From: Liolophura sinensis
Lineage: Eukaryota; Mollusca; Polyplacophora; Chitonida; Chitonidae
Length of the DNA stretch: 64,000 bases
Direction: 5' to 3'
Assembly: GCF_032854445.1 (NCBI RefSeq)
Contig: NC_088301.1
Span: forward strand, 13,202,281 to 13,266,280
The notes beneath the pieces were generated by a model. That model saw only the letters and a list, made by a program, of their open reading frames with translations, made no database searches and was not told where the DNA came from. Shown here one piece after another: positions 11,025 to 24,000 of the stretch. Every line of letters starts with the position of its first letter. The first letter of the stretch is position 1. The position numbers and the translations under genes are program-made.

Positions 11025-14000
11025 GTGAAACGTGGTTTGACACAAAATTGTGACTGTCTTTAAAAAGATCACATTTAGACGGTTAAAAGTCGGCTATTTA
11101 TGTCTCCTAGTTGTTGTTACAGTTTTACCCAGATTATAGTGCCAGTTCCACCTTATAAGACGTCTTGTTTGTGAAGTGTATCGTTGGTAATGTGATCAGA
11201 AGTTTAGGCCTAACAACACTTAACCAGAAATTTGAAACGCGAAAAGTTTGTCTGCTCAACAGCTGCTTCATAATTTACATTTTTAGAGTACGCTGCAAAC
11301 TGCATTTGCTGGTAGATGGTACAATAAAGATAGTCTTTTGGAAGATCGATTTTGGACATTGTCAAATCCACGTCGTAACATCTCCCCTTCCAGTCGCCAC
11401 ACAATGTTTTTAAATGGTAATTCAATAAAGTATCATTATCACATTTCATATGTAAAATGCCTCCAGACCATGACCCACCGTCCTGTCTTCAAGACGGCCG
11501 CCATGTATTTAAAATGGGTGAATACAGTTTTGGGGCTTTTTATTACTTTCTCTTTTCTAACAGTGATAATGGTAGACTGGCTGATTATTTTTGCAGGTCA
11601 GTTTTTAATATTGTTGACTTGGGTTATTTATAGTATAATAATTTTGCAACATGTTAAATGAAGTCAACTATGAATAATAGAGTCCAGGAGATCGACTGTT
11701 GTTGGCGATTCAAGTGTTCATGTGACCCTGTCAAACCATGAGGCAAATTGTGCCCTCTTGAAAACATTACGATAGGTCATGGCCTGTAGATATTTTACGT
11801 GTGAAACGATACTGCATTGAATTGTCATTAAAAAATTTGTGTGGCGAAAGAAGAGGAGATGTTATGGGGTGGATTTAAGCTGCTAGAGGTAGGTGGAGTG
11901 GTGATTGGGGCAGCTACCCGTGTCACACCATTGAGACAAACTTGCTTGACTCTGACTGTGGTTGAGCAGCAGTGAATATGGCGTGTCTAAATATATCTCA
12001 TAGGCGAGTGATGCTGTAACGTCATCATTGGCTGCAGTAAATAATCTGCAGACATCTACATGTATATAGTTACATTGTTGTAGACACTGACTCATCCAAA
12101 GAATATACTGGTGCAGTGGTTATGTTCATGCCGTAAAGTAATGCGCCGCAGAATATCGTAAAATGATTCTCGGGTTGTCCGGGCATGATGGTTCCATGTT
12201 GACGCCATGATAGGCGAATTCTCATCCGTTTGTACGCCCATCATGCACATACAAGGAACATGATTCGACCGTAATAGGCCCACCATACACTGACTGTGGA
12301 GCCGTGATAGCTGAAGGATATTTGGCTGGAATGCGGCTGTTCTGTACATGCATATTGCTCTTACTTTATGTTTGGCAAAATTTTGTTCAATCAAACATGG
12401 TTTCAAAACAATGAGAAAGCATGCTCCATTAAAAAACCTGATGCAGTTTGCAACAAACACTGATAGACCATTCAAAACAGCTCTCTGGCATATAGATAGC
12501 TTATATATAAATAAAACAGTTTACCATCATAACTTTCAGAGTCGTGGGTCATGCCATAATTTCATTTTTTTATGAAAATTCTTGCATCAAAAACCTGTGT
12601 GACTGAAGTGGTTAGCTTGCCAGCATGGCACAGTGACACAGGAGCCTCTCACAAATGCTGTACGGCTGAGTCCAGCACATGATGGCTTTCTCTCCAGCTG
12701 TATTTGAGGTCATCTTGCAACCTGCAGATGGTTGTGAGCTCCCCCGGGCTCTGCTCGGTTTCCGCCATCATAATGCTGGTTGTAGTCATATGAGTGAAAT
12801 ATTCTTGAGTACGGCATAAAACACCAAAAAAATAAATAAATAAATAAAATGAAAGACATAAGTGCAATATATTGAAATATTTTTAGGTCCTGATAACCAC
12901 TGACAGTTCAGGCCAGTTGTGGAATGCCTGTGTCTGGGACCCCCATTCTGGAACCTCATTGTTAACCTACAAAGGGGGCAGCACTGGTTCCCGATCCCTC
13001 TGTGTTCTGGGCAAGGATTACTTGTTAGGGGCTGTATGCAATAAACCATTATTACATATATGGCCACTTCAGAGAAAGGTAAGCCATGCTGTATTTGCAC
13101 GTCCTACCATTGTGGTTGTATTCATAAACAAATTTGGCGTACCATGATGTCTGAGAAAAACTTTGACATAATTTTATTGCAAGTAACAACATTTTAGCCT
13201 TACTATTATTGTCAACAAGTGTAGAGATGTTCACACAGAGGTTCACAACAAGAGTGTAAAATTCTCATTTATACATGTCAGGAAATATAACTTTCCTGTC
13301 GCTTTCAGTTTCAGTTTGTTAGCAGCCAGTGTGCTGTTGATGAAGATTACCATATTTCACTTAAAGTTTAGCCTCTATTAAGTGACATATTTTGCTTGAT
13401 TCTGATTGAGTGAGTGAGGGAGTGAGTGCTTGGGGTTTAACGTCATACTTAACAATTTGATTCTGATTGATACATCCACCTTATAATGCCACTGAAGAGT
13501 GAAGAGCTTTTTGCGAAGTTTCATTGCTTTTTTACCAGAAAAGCTGATGCTTCTGAAATAGAATTTGTACAAGCCAAACTTAAGGTAAAATACAGTACTT
13601 GCCTTTCACCAAAGATTGACTGTCCTGATAAAAATGTTTACAAGTTCATCAAGCGTCATACAATTTGTTGATTTCATGCAACAGACTGGCTGTGAAACTG
13701 ATGTTATACAAGTGAAATGTTTTTTGAGAACAGCTTCAAACAGTAAGCAGTCAATCTATCCTAGTTCCTCAACATCTTCCCATTTGAAAGATCAACTTTC
13801 AGTTCAACTTATGCACTTTTCTAATTTGATTTTGTAGACAAAATTGCAGTGGTTGGGATGGCCAATTTTAGGGCTTCATGAAAAGCATAATTTCTGTGCA
13901 CAGAATAATGCCCTGCGAATATGCTTGAATAAATATTGTGCAAACACGTGAAACAGTTGAATAATTACAGTAGTGCTTGGTGCCTAATCGAGCAGACTGT

Positions 14001-17000
14001 GTTGTGAAACTTGGCAGAAAATCATCTGTATCTTGACCGATTTATCGTATTAATGTAACAGATTTCAATGTCCTGAATGACTGTGTATAAATTAGCTTGG
14101 CTAAAATCATAAGTTTGAAGGGTTACTGGTCTGATTTTCAAGTCACATTAAATAAATAAAAGAATAAGTAAGTGCTGCTATTGCTGTAGCATGAACATGT
14201 GCTTTCTGCCCAATATAAAGCATTATTATTGTTATTGTTATTAATGTTAATATTGTTGTTATTCTTATTATTACAGTTGTTGTTATTGTTGGTATTGTTG
14301 TTATTCTTCTTATTATTATTATTCGCCGCCAGCACCAAATGTGCTAAAAGGTGGGGCACCAACAAACTTTGTGAAATACATGTATCTGACCGGGTTTTAT
14401 CAGGCCCCACTTTCACAAAACTGTCTAAATCAATTTTTTGTAACTTTTCTCATAAATCATGTCACCTTATGGTACTATAACTCACACCACAGCATTTACG
14501 AATAAAAAATAAATAAATACACAATACATGTGACCCCACCCTAAGGATGATAGCACCTTGCCTTCAGACTTGTCACCTGTTTACTGATTGTAGGAGCAGA
14601 TACAGATGAAGATGGTATGTGCAGGACCCGTGTCTTGTGTCACTGTCACAGCAGATGGTGCATACTGCATTGCAGGAATAGCTGAGAAGATTCATGTCTG
14701 GCAGGTATGAGGTCAAAATCTGAACTGCTATCATCATGTAAAGGTGTTAGAAAATTCTAGGTTGAGACTCACAACCACCCGCAGGTTACTGCCAGACCTT
14801 CCCATGTAGGGCTGGAGAGGACGCCAGCAGGTCTGAACATGAACCTCAATGGTGAGAGGCTCCTGGGTAATATCACCTTGCTGGCACAGTAATAACCTTG
14901 GCCGCAGAAGCACCTTTAATCCAGTGAAAACAGTTTGTTTTATTTCTTAGTAGTTTAGGATGTGTCTTAGATTTCTTCTTATTTCATAAAAAAAAATGGC
15001 TTTAACTACATTTTTAACCATAGGTAACCTTATGTGTGTCCTCACTCATCATGACTACAACCTTACTTGTCTCTTTTTTTTCTTATTCTGGTGGCCACAG
15101 GTAACCCTCTATGTGTCCTCACTTGTCAGTACCAGAAGCTTACCTGTCTTTGTTTTCACATTCAGGTAGCCACAGGTAACTTTCTTTGTGCCTCACTCAT
15201 CATTACCAGAACCTTACCTGTCTCTGTTTTCACATCCAGGTAGCCACAGGTAACCTTTTGTCTCTCCTTACTCATCAGTACCAGAACCTTACCTGTCTCT
15301 GTTTTCACACCGAGGTAGCCACAGGTAACCTTCTGTGTGTCCTCACTCATCAGTACCAGAACCTTACCTGTCTCTGTTTTCACATCCAGGTAGCCATAGG
15401 TAACCTTTTGTCTATCCTCACTCATCAGTACCAGAACCTTACCTGTCTCTGTTTTCACATCCAGGTAGCCACAGGTAACCTTCTATGTGTCCTCACTCGT
15501 CAGTACCAGAACCTTACCTGTCTCTGTTTCCACATCCAGGTAGCTACAGGTAGTAGCCTTCTGTATGTCCTCACTCGTCAGTACCAGAACCTTACCTGTC
15601 TCTGTTTTCACATCTAGGTAGCCACAGGTAACCTTCTATGTGTCCTCACTCATCAGTACCAGAACCTTACCTGTCTTTGTTTTCACATCCAGGTAGCCAC
15701 AGGTAACCTTTTGTCTATCCTCACTCATCAGTACCAGAACCTTACCTGTCTTTGTTTTCACATCCAGGTAGCCACAGGTAACCTTCTGTGTCCTCACTCA
15801 TCATTACCAGAACCTTACCTGTCTCTGTTTTCACATCTAGGTAGCCACAGGTAACCCTCTTTGTGTCCTCACTCATCAGTACCAGAACCTTACCAGTCTC
15901 TATTTTCACATCCAGGTAGCCACAGGTAACCTTCTGTGTGCCCTTACTCATTATGACCAGAACCTTAGCTGTCTCTGTTTTTACCTTCTAGTAGCCAAAG
16001 GTAACCTTCTATGTGTCCTCACTCGTCATTACCAGAACCTTACCTGTCTCTGTTTTCACATTCAGGTAGCCACAGGTAACCTTCTATGTGTCCTCACTCG
16101 TCATTACCAGAACCTTACCTGTCTCTGTTTTCACATTCAGGTAGCCAAAGGTAACCTTCTATGTGTCCGAACTCATCATGACCAGAACCTTACCTGTCTC
16201 TGTTTTCACATTCAGGTAGCCACAGGTAACCTTCTGTGTGTCCTCACTCGTCATTACCAGCACCTTACCTGTCTCTGTTTTCACATTCAGGTAGCCACAG
16301 GTAACCTTCTGTGTGTCCGGACTCATCATGACCAGAACCTTACCTGTCTCTGTTTTCACATTCAGGTAGCCACAGGTAATCTTCTATGTGTCCTCACTCA
16401 TCATTACCAGAACCTTACCTGTCTCAGGTGCACAGATGACGATAGCTGCGTGGTGTCAGGTGGAGAGGATAGCCTCGTCGTTGTTTGGTCATTGCTGAGG
16501 TGAGTGGGTTTGAAGTGGAATGCAGACAGTATGAAAATGGGGCTCTCTCTGGCAGAGCAGTTGTTAAACAATGAGATTGCGTGTTTGAATCCAACCCTAA
16601 TAGGTCAGTTTTGACTTACTGTTTTGAAAGTCCTACTGTATCATGTGACCTGTCAAAAATGTCCGGCAATTATTATTGATCACGTAACATGGGAGTCTGA
16701 AAAAGTTTCGCAGAAAGTTAGAGTAGATGAATACTGGAGAACATTGAGGTGTTGAACGTTTGTGAACTAGAGACTACCCTTATTCCTCAACCTCTTCGCA
16801 TGTGAAAGAACAACTTTCAGTGCAATTTATGCACATTTTTAAGCTGATTTTCGAGACAAAACTAATTGGTTGGATTGGCCAGGTTCAGAACTTAGCCAAA
16901 AAGTATAATTTTATCGGTCAACACGTAATAATTCCTTCAGAATATGTGTGAATAATTACCTTGCAAACATGCCGAAAGGTTGAAGAATTACAGTAGAAAG

Positions 17001-17968
17001 TTAGCATGTAATGACTAATTCTACAGTGGTGAACATGTTTATTTAATATTTTCCCTATCCGGACATACGTGGAAAGGTCTGTCCAGCAACCTGCGGATGG
17101 TCAAGAGTTTCTCATTTGCTCTGCTCGTTTTTTTTCCCACTGTAATGCAGGCCGCCGTCATATATGTGAAATATTTTTAAGTACGACACAAAACACCAAT
17201 CAAATAAATAAATAAAATAAAGCCAATGTCATGTTATCCAACAGGGTTGACGCAGTTCACACTACTAGACTTTTACCACTTCTGGAAGCCTGATGTTTTT
17301 AAAGTTCATGACAGTGGTAAAAAAACACCCCAAAAATGTAAAGCAATGTACTGGATTTGAACCCTATATTGCCTAGCATCAATAACAATTGATCAAGTAC
17401 TGAATACTAGAATAAACATTTGGCGGCTTTGATCTTCTGTTGATACCTGAGGACAAAAGACAGATGGAATATATTGTTATGAAGTTGGTGCTTGAGAGCA
17501 GAAGACAGAAAGGATACATTGTTGCAGAGCTGATGACAGTTCCCACAGTAAAGTGCAGTCAGTGGTTTCATGCAGTCTAGCATGAAGTTCCCGTGTTATT
17601 TACATAGGACAATTTGGTAAATTTTTGTTGGTTTTTGGTCATAACATGAAAACAACACAAAGCACAAAAATCATTGATGTCAAGGGGCACCAGTGAGTGT
17701 GTTTGTTTAATAATTTTTAAGCATTTTTGAAAATTGACCTACTTTTGAACCAAGTTTTGAGATTGGTCAGTTTTGGCCTTATTTGCATACCAATCTGAAA
17801 GTTTTTTTACAATATGGGTTGGGCGATCCACGTAAAAACTACACTTGAAAAGTTTATCTCAATAGGGTTGGCCATTTTGGAGAAGAAGATTTTTATAGCT
17901 TATCAATAAAATTCTAAATGGCCACTAAGTCCAGCCGGCCGGCCGTTAGTCTTTTCATAGCTTTAATT

Positions 17969-18011
<43 letters not shown>

Positions 18012-21000
18012 AGGAAGCTGGTATGTGACATAGGTATTACGGGCTGGTTGCGTATAGCACTGCCTTATACCACTGTAACCTAGACAGTGTCTTTAATGAG
18101 AAAAGTTATGAGAAATATGCCTTACAAAGTTTTGTGAAAGTGGCTCCTGTATGTTACATTTGGCATGCTTGACAGTTTCTTGTCAGAGATTGATGGTTTA
18201 CTCTGGTTTCCTCTACCGAGGAAAGTTGTATAAGTGAAATATCCTTGCTATTTCATTAAAAGACCAATCGTGTAGAAGTGGCAGGTTTGAGTGTACTTAT
18301 GGTAAGACCTAACATTTCTCCCTAAAAATGACAGTTTCAGAGGCAGATAAATGTCATAAAACATTAATTTTGCTGCTAAAATTTGTATTTTGATAGTAAG
18401 ATATCATCCTACCTTCCACACAGATCTCAATTAATATTTCTCAGATCAGTAGGACCCATTGAAATCCGGGCAAAATGAGCAACTCGGCCGTAGACGAAAT
18501 GTAGGGTCATTGCCTGTATCTTTAAACGTTGAGATAGTGAGATTTTCAGTTGTTTGTGAGAGTGTTGTGGTTTTTGCATTTATCACAGCTCAGTTTGCTC
18601 AGCTCAAAAACCTGGCAGACAGCCTGTTGTGTATCAGTAACGTAACAGTTCAATATACTGTCAAATGAAGAAACTAAAATGACTTTTGTTTTCTCCGTTT
18701 AAAGTGTGTTGTCCAGGACGTCTGATCAGACAATGACGCAGGAGCCACTGTATGTGTGGACAGGTCACTCCTTACCCGTGACGGACATCTATGTCGGGGT
18801 TGGGGGACGGAGAGCCAGAGTTGTCTCCTCTTCTCTTGACCAGACATGTAAGGTAAGCGTCCATTTAGTGCATGTCCAGTGTAAGTTTAAAACTGAATCA
18901 GCCTCTTTTCACTAAGATTTGAATCTGGGACTAGGTGCACAAGTCAGCTTCATATCAGCTTACTTTTCTTAAGGCACCAGTCAGCTTCGTATCAGCTTAC
19001 TTTTGTTCAGGCTGGCTGTAGAATTCCTGAAGGCAAACAAAACACTTACCTACGACCAGAGAAAAAAACAGTCACATCACTTCAAAGTTTTTATCTCTTT
19101 TATTGAGATACTTAACTATTTTTTTCATGTCAGCACTGTATGAGAAGACTTGCTTGGTGTAATGGGCACATGAAACATTTGTTTTTTATTTCTTATTAAG
19201 GAGAGTATGATGTGGCCGAACATATAAAAGTACAAAAAAACTCTCAGCTTTCTTCATGGGGCATAAAAATGACCTTAAACTATGAAGACCCCCCCCCCCC
19301 CCCCCCCACTTCCCAGCAGACAGTAGAGAAATTAAGTAGCCTGCTGTAGTGACCTCATCGGTGATAGCTTTGATCTGTTCATTAATAGCATTATTTTCCA
19401 ATAGTTCCAACCACTGACAGGAAATAAGTATAAAATAGAGGGGTTATTAAAAAAAATATAAAATATTCGTCAATAACTTCAAATTTTCTATTTTTTCTTT
19501 GTCATATCTTTCTTCATTTTCCTTAAAAGCATACTCTTCGCTTTATAGTACCTTATCATGTATCTTTGAATAGTTTGAAGTAAGAATAATCTGTGCACTG
19601 CCATCATCAACACCAAACCTCATGCCATTGTCTATTATGTATTTTATTTTATTTATTGTGATTGTCTTGAAGTTTCTTTCTTACCATTTTTGTTTCACAA
19701 CAAAACAGAAACAGAATAAAATGTGGCCACATTGAGCGACTAAATTTCCAATGTTTCAGGAAACTTACAATATATGCAATCTGTAAATACTGGGTCGCTG
19801 TGAGTTCAAGTCCAGCTGATGCTGGCTTCCTCTCCGGCGGTACGTGGGAAGGTCTGCAAACAACCTGTGGATGGTCGTGGGTTTCCCCCGGGCTCTGCCC
19901 GGTTTCCTCCCACCATATAAATGAAATATTCTTGAGTACGGCGTAAAACACCAATCAAATAAATAACTGTAAATACTGATCCAGTGCCTACAAAGATCCT
20001 TGCTTGTGTGTGTGGAGTTGAAATATTCTTGAGTATGGCGTAAAATACCAATCAGATAAATGAATACGTGTACAGATGACTTGGTTTTTGAGACTGACTT
20101 GTTCTCAGTTAGGACAAGGATCATGTTATTGTATACATTTATATGAGGCTTGATATGTTATGAAGATGTGTGTTCATACCTCAAGTACTCATTGCTTAAA
20201 CGAGAAAAAATGTGAATATCAACCAAATACCAATGAAAAGAGTGCTTTTCCTCACAGGTGCATGCCATAAAAAATTCTAACATATACCTCAAGTTGACAA
20301 ATCATAAATAAAATCAGTGCCAAAAGTCGTCGTGGGAAGGTCTACCATCAACCTGCGAATGGTTGTGGGTTTCCCCCACCGTCATCCTGGCAGTCATCAT
20401 ATAAGTGAAGGATTCTTCAGTACAACTTAAAACACCAATCAGATAAATAAATAAATTGCTTAACCACCATATTTTATGTTTTCAGCTCTGGGACTTGAGT
20501 TCAGGGTCGTTGTTGTTGACAGTGATGTTTGATAGCAGTATTACATCAGTTGCCATGGATACTCCCGAGTACAGACTATTTGCAGGCTCTAATAGTGGGA
20601 CTGTTTATTCAGTCAATCTCTTCTCACAGGTAAGTGTGAGCGCATGTGACTCTTTAACGCCTGTAAAGGGCATTGTTGAATAAAAGAATAATGTATTTTC
20701 TGCCCTGTCCAATTTTTCTCTGAAGATTGACAGTACAATAACACAAGGTTGTTCTGTGCCAGAGATTTGCCTGTAAACACATTGTCTTGCAGTATATAGT
20801 TTTAACCATGGTCCTGAAACCTGAGCGAATGAGTAATTTTTAAAGATGTTTATTTTTGTTTTTTTTTTTACCAAAGCTGACCAAGGCGTAAGTGGTTGAG
20901 ATGTACATATCACAGTAGTTATTTTTGTGTTCTTTAAAAGGAGTTTATTCAAGACCAGGAACTTAGCAGGTTTACTCAGAACTGTTGTCTAAATAACTTG

Positions 21001-24000
21001 TGTCTCAATATTAAACTTCATGGCAACATAAGTCTGAAAGCATGGTGTGTTGACGTCCACAATTTACACCTGCTTTGCACATTGATCTGTTGTCCTATGT
21101 ACTCTTATTCTTCATTCTTTTTTTGTGTTATGTCTTTGCAAACATATTCCTATGGTATTATTCTGTGCTGACTGTTAAGATCAAACTTTCTGTGACGTCC
21201 TAAAATGTGACCAGCCCAACTAATGTAGTTTTGCCTTCAAAATCTAATTGAAAAGATGTATGAATTCCACTGGAATTGGCTCTTTCATGTGTGAAAAGAT
21301 GTATGAATTCCACTGGAATTGGCTCTTTCATGTGTGAAAAGATGTATGAATTCCACTGGAATTGGCTCTTTCATGTGTGAAAAGATGTATGAATTCCACT
21401 GGAATTGGCTCTTTCATGTGTGAAAAGATGTATGAATTCCACTGGAATTGGCTCTTTCATGTGTGAAAAGATGTATGAATTCCACTGGAATTGGCTCTTT
21501 CATGTGTGAAAAGATGTATGAATTCCACTGGAATTGGCTCTTTCATGTGTGAAAAGATGTATGAATTCCACTGGAATTGGCTCTTTCATGTGTGAAAAGA
21601 TGTATGAATTCCACTGGAATTGGCTCTTTCATGTGTGAAAAGATGTATGAATTCCACTGGAATTGGCTCTTTCATGTGTGAAAAGATTTAGGAATTAGGA
21701 TACTAAAATTTCCGTGTATTATCAGGTTATTTATTTATCTAATTGCTGTTTTACACCATACTTAAGAATATTTCACTTACATGAGGGTGACCAGCATTAT
21801 GTTGGGAGGAAACTGGACACAACCCAGGGGGAACCCACAACCATCCGAAGGTTGCTGGTAGACCTTCCCACTTAAGGCTGGAGAGGAAGACAGCATGAGC
21901 TGGACCCACAGTGACCACATTGGTGAGAGTTTCCAGGGTCATTGCCCCACTCTGGTGTTCTAACCCCCTGGGCCACAGAGGCCTCCTCATTATCAGGTAT
22001 AGTTTGTTCCCATGCATTTGTTCATCTCGGCATCTGCTACCAACTCTAATAGGCTGGTGTACGGGGCCTGCGTGGCCAAGACGGTTAGCACACCAGTACG
22101 GCACTGACGTAGGAGCCTCCCACCAATGCGGTTGCTGTGAGTTTGTCCAGCTCATGCTGGATTCCACTCTGGCCGTATGTGGGAAGGTCTTCCAACAGCC
22201 TGCAGATGGCCATGGGTTTTCCCTGGGCCCTGCCCGGTTTCCTCCCAATGTAATTTTGGCCGTCGTCATATAAGTGAAATATTATTGAGTACGGCAATAA
22301 ATTTGCACATTTACTTTTTTCTTTTGTGTTTCTGTTTTTATTTTGTGTATATTTTCCCACTATTTCTAGCCAGTAAAAACAGAGCGTCATATATCATCTT
22401 CAGAAGTGGACAAGAATGTTACGCAGTTTCAAGGGCATAGGTAAATATAAGTTCTTGGAAGGAATTTACAAAACACATGTCGAGTTTGAAAACACATGTT
22501 TAACTCCTTTGTTGCTGCATGCATGTCAGTTCAGTGAATTCCTGAAATTTCAACCATAGATGTATGCGTAATATTTACCTTATGTATCAGTTTTAAAAGT
22601 GTACTGTCGAGCCAGAGGGTGAGAATGTTTGGGGCTTTTTAATGAGGAAAAATAGAATTGATTATTGAGTTTAAGTACAGAAACTTTAAGCTTTTGAGCA
22701 CTATTTATCTGACTTGGCAGATTGTAATTGCCTATCTAACCATGTATCCATTGAATGTTTAATTTCATTAGACTTAAAGTGAAGAAATCCAAAATTCTAC
22801 TCAACAATGCTCATCAGCCATTTTCCACAGACATACTTTCTGTGAAGACCACTTGTCTTCTGTTATGTCTGTATGCACCTGAATGGCGTGCAAGTCAATG
22901 TTGCACATAGGCAAGTTTGACTGTAACTTGTCTGGGCTGTTTACCCTGAGAACTGCCAGTTTCCTCCAACCGAAGATGCTTCAAAGTTTACCCCCAAAGA
23001 AGCCCTAAACTTTTTGCTGAAAGCCTGTTGAATTTCAGCTTTTAAGGTTTTGTGCTGTTTTTTCCTCTCTCAGTAAACAAGTCACCTGTCTGGCTGTCTC
23101 ATTGGATGGTAGTTTATTGTTCTCGGGTTCACATGACACCAAAGTCAAAGTGTGGGATATCTCCAGTGGTCAGTGCTTGAGGTCCATAGATCACAAAGGT
23201 AGGTAACTCTTACAGAAAGTATCATCACCAGATTGGGCTACTCTCTGGTCAGAGAGCTCAAAATGAGCTGGAAATTATGTGTCGTGACAGGTTTTGATTT
23301 TGGTTACATAACATGATTCACATGATCAGATTACTGCAATCTGAATGGATGATTTGGAAAAAGCAGGATGAAAACTCTTTTGATTGATGGAAACAGGAGG
23401 TGTGGCTCATGAATGTATTAATACACAGAAAGTATATTTGACTCTAGACGGCTGAGTGAAGAGGGACGTAGAGGGCAAATTATCTCAGATCCCTTCCCTT
23501 GGATTAGGTTTTGAACACAGGGGCTTATAAATATTTCTTTTCATCCATAAAACTTATATTCTTCTGTTCTAGGCGCTGTGACAAACATAATTTCAATGCT
23601 TGCACCCAATACTATGTTCACTCACAACCACAAGCCCAGTCTTCCCATACAACCATTTAAACGACATCTGTACACGGAGGAGACCAGGGGAGAGAACTCT
23701 GATGGAACTGTTGGCATGGACACAGTGGATGTGAGGATATCACACACAGCCCAGGTACATTCCCTTCTTTACAACAAATGTTCCGCAGATATCCATAAAC
23801 CAGACAGTCACATTGTCCCATTGAGCTGGATGTCATATTTTGGACAATGTCATTTGTGTATGTAAAAAAAGTTGTACTGGAAGTGGTATATTCAAAGTGT
23901 AAGAAAAGAGTTTCTTTTGGTTTTTAGCTGACATTACAATAGCATTGCATTAACCTTTTGAAATGCTTATTTATTGCTGACAGGGGAAATAGGGAATGCT

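Follow-up and report, generated by a model that had tools for sequence, protein, structure and literature searches.

What becomes of splicing when the acceptor junction of an exon is repeated many times over in the intron before it, and is such an arrangement confined to one gene? Both questions are raised by intron 3 of WDR18 in a stretch of 64,000 nucleotides (nt) from the Liolophura chiton genome (the whole stretch is termed the window herein). The assembly is reported to be built from PacBio HiFi reads at 14x coverage and Omni-C data (PMC11068029), and its species has been corrected to L. sinensis (PMC12441733). The WDR18 exons, and the units (u1 to u18) of the array between exons 3 and 4, are as follows.

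12887..13078, forward strand: WDR18 exon, probably exon 2, placed by its translation and its match to human WDR18
14594..14704, forward strand: WDR18 exon 3, 111 nt, ending in phase 0 (..AEKIHVWQ), with the donor CAG|GTATGA
15015..15165, forward strand: u1 and u2, the most diverged edge of the array, with no AG at the acceptor position before either
15166..15840, forward strand: u3 to u11, with nine AG decoy acceptors, each leading to a stop codon if joined to exon 3
15841..16365, forward strand: u12 to u18, with seven decoy acceptors, of which those of u12, u13, and u15 to u18 are open in frame and that of u14 is not
16366..16499, forward strand: WDR18 exon 4, 134 nt, whose first 60 nt (16366-16425) are unit 19
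18705..18852, forward strand: WDR18 exon 5, placed by its match to human WDR18

Exon 4 is bounded by the acceptor TTTTCACATTCAG|GTAGCC and the donor CTGAG|GTGAGT. The joined exons matched human WDR18 in the PDB (8fl2) with an E value of 6.9e-66 over residues 2 to 195 of the 195-residue query, and the alignment crosses the exon 3/4 junction gapless and without insertion. Because the protein is uninterrupted across exons 3 and 4, we take the exon to be the ancestral source and the array to be the derived copy.

The initial annotation had described about 17 copies of the exon start with a 15-base tract, and the array proved real: TRF placed it at 15018-16425, with a period of 75 bp, 18.7 copies, and 89% matches, and splitting it in register gave 18 units upstream of the exon, u1 starting at 15015 and u18 ending at 16365. 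Exon 4 is itself the last unit of the repeat, as had been proposed, since its start falls in register as unit 19. Each full unit consists of 60 nt of the exon 4 start followed by a 15-nt polypyrimidine-AG tract, TGTTTTCACATTCAG or a close variant of it; three inner units depart from 75 nt, at 73, 74, and 78 nt. Comparison with exon 4 confirmed that the exon-like part of the units is related to exon 4, with identities to the exon 4 start of 85 to 98% (87 to 98% excluding u1), which is far above chance. Divergence is greatest at the upstream edge (u1, 85%; u2, 87%; u3 to u18, 88 to 98%). A 29-nt junction probe found 18 copies in the WDR18 array at ≤25% mismatch and none in a control of 110 kb of kinase loci, and a DNA search of the 609-Mb genome (632 contigs, 609.46 Mb) returned nine matches among the best candidates scored, all within the WDR18 array. 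A two-unit period is weak, with an identity of 0.922 at lag 2 compared with 0.907 to 0.912 at the other lags up to 8. The exon 4 unit is no outlier, being 95 to 98% identical to several array units, so exchange between exon 4 and the array is conceivable and may have occurred.

It had also been claimed that every unit presents a complete 3' splice site followed by true WD40 coding sequence. The first part holds for 16 of the 18 upstream units: an AG stands before u3 to u18 (offset by 1 nt before u14), but not before u1 and u2, which leaves 16 decoy acceptors upstream of the authentic one. Five of these (u3 and u15 to u18) have a 15-nt tract identical to that of the authentic site, u15 to u18 match the authentic site at 125 to 128 of 135 positions from −75 to +60, and 10 of the 16 score equal to the authentic acceptor on a rough consensus matrix. 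The second part stands as to descent, the sequence being derived from the exon start, but has limits as to coding: the units carry no coding constraint, and only 6 of the 16 decoys (u12, u13, and u15 to u18) keep the protein open when joined to exon 3, giving an in-frame extension of 25 codons per unit, while the other 10 (u3 to u11 and u14) meet a stop. Constraint was assessed in units 2 to 18 from the distinct alleles in each column relative to the consensus. No coding constraint was found in the exon part of these units, where 9 of 29 alleles were synonymous and 8.4 (28.8%) were expected (P = 0.84). Heterozygosity in the same units was 0.111 in the intron part and, for the first, second, and third codon positions, 0.076, 0.101, and 0.112, and unit lengths that break the frame (73 and 74 nt) occur in the array. 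Since no coding constraint is seen, the units behave as intron, with no sign of translation.

The statement that no such minisatellite had been described could not be upheld. Junction minisatellites termed mirages are published for amphioxus, in the globin genes BflGb6 (on the acceptor side, as in WDR18) and BflGb9 (3' boundary of exon 2) and in Adh3 (PMC3087553), with PGBD5 added, and troponin C (TnC) cited, in a later paper (PMC3902484). In BflGb6, the 3' end of the intron and the 5' part of the next exon are repeated, with six and three units in two haplotypes (PMC3087553). According to the same source, the amphioxus units are 150 to 160 bp long and 81 to 100% identical, AG/GT is kept in many but not all of them, and mirages may be a general cephalochordate phenomenon. 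The WDR18 array resembles them in that its tandem units span an exon-intron boundary (60 nt of exon and 15 nt of intron) and in that the splice signal is kept in many units but not in all (AG before 16 of the 18 upstream units, one of them shifted). It differs from the BflGb6 mirage, with its long units and six or three copies, in having 75-bp units in 18 copies and in belonging to a mollusc. Two further comparisons lie in intron gain. Human tandem repeats that overlap exon-intron boundaries are described in segmental duplications, with 27 intron modifications (PMC2812944); in the published account they concern variation between recent paralogs in which new introns form, whereas the WDR18 array is at one locus and its exon still aligns unbroken to the human protein. 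The Rogers model derives introns from tandem duplication of segments containing AGGT (PMC4974935), and as in that model, so far as the source sets it out, the WDR18 unit holds AG|GT and its duplication creates paired splice signals; unlike in the model, there is no sign of a new intron, and the repeats stand before an exon with an unbroken protein alignment. Within the open-licence papers searched, no junction minisatellite was found for a mollusc; an abalone intronic minisatellite with a 27-bp unit appears in the relevant passages of its report without a statement that it spans a junction (PMC6905558), and a passage mentioning tandem sequence in a comparative study of chitons is unrelated (PMC12005716). 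The kind of array is thus already known, and what goes beyond it is its frequency in a mollusc.

We consider it probable that the WDR18 array is a mirage, a near-neutral minisatellite whose copies are treated as intron and whose last acceptor is the one used. Replication slippage or unequal exchange would have tandemly duplicated a segment that by chance spanned the intron 3/exon 4 junction, and the array would then have expanded and been partly homogenized within the intron. The spliceosome would most likely join exon 3 to the last acceptor by exon definition, because a unique exon body follows the last copy alone, with a strong donor 134 nt further on. The ten decoys that equal the authentic acceptor on the rough matrix speak against this reading, and exon length does not obviously exclude the decoys, since the nearest would give an exon of only 209 nt. 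Nor does weakness of the array's donors argue strongly for it, since exon 3's own donor scores only 4.4 on the same matrix, below the best one in the array (4.7). The array would persist because it is close to neutral, splicing ignoring the copies, and it would be one of many in a chiton in which minisatellites are common and, in a small sample, junctions are hit no more than nearby intron.

The alternative that survives best, although we regard it as unlikely, is that decoys are used appreciably, yielding a ladder of WDR18 isoforms with one or more modules of 25 residues added to exon 4, or, from most of the upstream decoys, transcripts with premature stops that serve as an unproductive-splicing control. 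The decoys with the authentic tract and the close resemblance of u15 to u18 to the true site speak for it, as do the six decoys with an open frame (the other ten reach a stop). So does the minisatellite of the human gene 6-16 (IFI6), which, to judge by a title, provides its transcript with multiple splice donor sites; there, too, a minisatellite multiplies a splice site of its gene, with the differences that it is on the donor side and that, per the title, the sites are used. Against a ladder stand the lack of coding constraint in the units and the expectation that a module corresponding to only part of a WD40 blade would disturb the fold. In addition, the amphioxus globin, Adh, and TnC mirages are reported to be without splicing disturbance or aberrant mRNAs (PMC3087553, PMC3902484), and the Adh3 data and globin reverse transcription-PCR suggest no interference with regular splicing (PMC3087553).

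Recursive splicing, in which CAG|GTAGCC or ACAG|GTAACC would act as combined acceptor and donor and the array would be removed unit by unit, is very improbable. Most units do have AG|GT both at the junction and 10 nt farther along, both AGGT motifs lying within the duplicated segment, and on the rough matrix u3 holds the array's best donor, whose 4.7 exceeds the 4.4 of exon 3. However, most of the AG|GT donors are weak, at 0.7 to 2.8 at the junction and 1.1 to 4.7 ten bases on, compared with 7.7 for the exon 4 donor, the only one above 6 bits in 14706-18700 (the same rough matrix throughout), and each step would need an intron of 65 to 75 nt with an exon of 0 to 10 nt. That a single junction was assembled many times is unlikely in the extreme, because the genome is reported as a HiFi assembly (PMC11068029) and because the units carry individual combinations of single nucleotide polymorphisms (SNPs) and indels, which a duplication artefact would not produce, even though tandem arrays are difficult to assemble and the long reads give a depth of just 14x. 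The position at the acceptor of a conserved gene might suggest a selected regulatory element, such as a platform for splicing or RNA binding, but this is just as remote, given that variation is flat between the exon and intron parts of the units and that the same layout recurs with other sequences at eleven other sampled exons.

Those eleven come from a survey of 138 exon matches of two families, helicases and kinases, in which WDR18 was not counted. For the helicases, 76 Helicase_C matches were listed and 68 sampled, as 28 loci and 40 of the remaining 48; for the kinases, 138 matches were listed and 70 sampled, as 30 loci and 40 of the remaining 108, the second kinase set being picked by eye for short spans before the flanks were seen. 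Mirages were called by eye after TRF, and as certain genes contribute several matches, these are not fully independent. A TRF row lay within 200 bp in 32 of the 138 loci, and 11 of the 138 matches were called as mirages, two of them borderline; the WDR18 array is therefore not unique in kind. By set, the 30 long kinase matches gave no mirage, the 28 helicase loci gave 3, and the 40 helicase stretches and the 40 short kinase stretches gave 4 each. The first of these, the long kinase set (L009 to L038), is a weak denominator, with only 13 enclosed 5' boundaries and 21 enclosed 3' boundaries, and was kept in the 138; outside it, the rate is 11 of 108 (95% interval, 5 to 17%). With in-frame stops as the criterion, 228 junctions proved to be enclosed within 200 bp, namely, 97 + 97 in the three other sets and 13 + 21 in the long kinase set, and 9 of the 11 mirages (all except L082 and L087) lie on enclosed sides, corresponding to about 4% of enclosed junctions. 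An in-frame stop also fell within the matched stretch itself in 32 of the 138 matches; there, the edges of a match may extend into intron, or the copy may be broken. Among the other 21 loci with a TRF row, no junction copies were seen in the sequence of L075, L096, L103, L142, and part of L041, nor at a glance in 14 more. L077 was ambiguous and left out of the count, the 1.9 copies at L028 fall within the coding match, and L060 has two off-diagonal self-matches that are not tandem.

Nine of the arrays repeat a donor junction (L052, L053, L059, L082, L083, L087, L094, L123, and L131) and two an acceptor junction (L110 and L112), and the exon portion in the second copies is 11 to 102 nt. The borderline calls are L094, which has 11 nt of exon and whose probe also matches once in the 110-kb kinase control, and L131, where homology was found only with a gap. 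Three arrays in helicase genes were measured in full.

L053, 1643-2501: helicase exon end with GTGAGT, about 22 copies (TRF, 22.1) of a 39-bp unit
L059, 755-1542, gene on the minus strand: helicase exon end with donor, 11.5 copies of a 69-bp unit
L052, 1633-2212: helicase exon end with donor, 26.6 copies of a degenerate 22-bp unit

The junction probe for L053 showed GT kept in all 22 copies found. From their motifs, we take L053 to be DDX41-like, L059 SMARCAD1-like, and L052 DDX52-like, and the other surveyed genes presumably include DDX24-, DICER-, RECQ-, PKN-, PASK-, and GRK-like ones. With its 18 copies, the WDR18 array is one of the longer arrays whose full extent was measured. The other eight, from L082 to L131, are truncated by the limits of the sequence analyzed; their TRF units are 122 bp (L082), 37 bp (L083), 66 bp (L087), 46 bp (L094), 37 bp (L110), 80 bp (L112), 67 bp (L123), and 65 bp (L131). 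Unit length in frame was considered as a sign of selection and rejected, since among the 12 arrays, counting that of WDR18, 4 have a TRF period divisible by 3, which is the chance share; the count would shift slightly with the measured copy spacing, which is 123 for L082 and 95 to 96 for L094.

The genome sequence also contains a 108,685-base contig (C99 of G000) in which cox1 was matched seven times at intervals of about 15.5 kb; the contig seems to carry the mitochondrial genome in tandem and is probably an assembly concatemer. On it, nad5-nad4-nad4L-cob-nad6-nad1 lie on the opposite strand to cox1-cox2-atp6, the Katharina-type order of molluscs, and an ARAGORN run under the bacterial code gave no mitochondrial tRNAs. 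A search for the GFP family, intended to distinguish amphioxus from mollusc, was uninformative, with no match in the genome or in 14 controls.

Why junctions should be repeated at all can be asked of minisatellites in general. Tandem arrays of minisatellite size occupy about 16% of the 64,000-nt window (from a hand-merged TRF list), and the published repeat table for the assembly gives 0.08% for simple repeats, microsatellites, and RNA together and 14.04% for unclassified repeats (PMC11068029). Another array, at 21249-21696 of the window, has a 43-bp unit in 10.4 copies with 99% matches, and it is probably young, since its copies are far more uniform than those of the WDR18 array. Around the sampled exons, with distances taken from the match edges and not from true junctions, array coverage in the three exon-bounded sets was 6 to 13% at 50 to 200 bp outside the matches, 5 to 6% at 0 to 50 bp outside, about 3% in the first 50 bp within the match edge, and 0 to 2% deeper; in the long kinase set, it was zero throughout, within 200 bp of the matches. 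A hotspot at junctions was rejected, as coverage falls toward the exons in a gradient without a peak at the junctions. Because coverage forms such a gradient, the most likely explanation is random birth of minisatellites together with selection against damage to exons, the arrays being tolerated as splicing ignores the copies.

The excess of donor-type over acceptor-type arrays is suggestive only. Nine versus two gives P = 0.065 in a sign test, and seven versus two on enclosed sides gives about 0.18, worked by hand; Fisher's test (P = 0.058 for nine versus two with 97 enclosed junctions each) is too generous, because it took all 11 arrays as enclosed, which does not hold for L082 and L087. A possible reason for such a bias is the order of transcription, donor copies following the real donor and acceptor copies preceding the real acceptor, and if this order matters, WDR18 has the riskier type. 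We advance only tentatively, as a doubtful proposition, that junction minisatellites are a pervasive and continuing source of mutation in chitons, affecting about 5% of the junctions of conserved genes, with selection tolerating donor copies and mostly removing acceptor copies. If that is true, WDR18 with its 16 decoy acceptors would be an extreme natural test of splice-site choice.

The WDR18 array, then, is a real and striking junction minisatellite and most likely a silent one. An 18-copy mirage in a mollusc, together with 11 others at 138 sampled matches, suggests that mirages follow wherever minisatellites are abundant. At such arrays, gene predictors may miscall exons. The SNPs specific to individual units would let RNA sequencing reads be assigned to many of the WDR18 decoys. 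The arrays are natural constructs with many near-identical splice sites in a row, on which the spliceosome's choice of the right one can be studied, and they may provide raw material for exon extension and intron gain.
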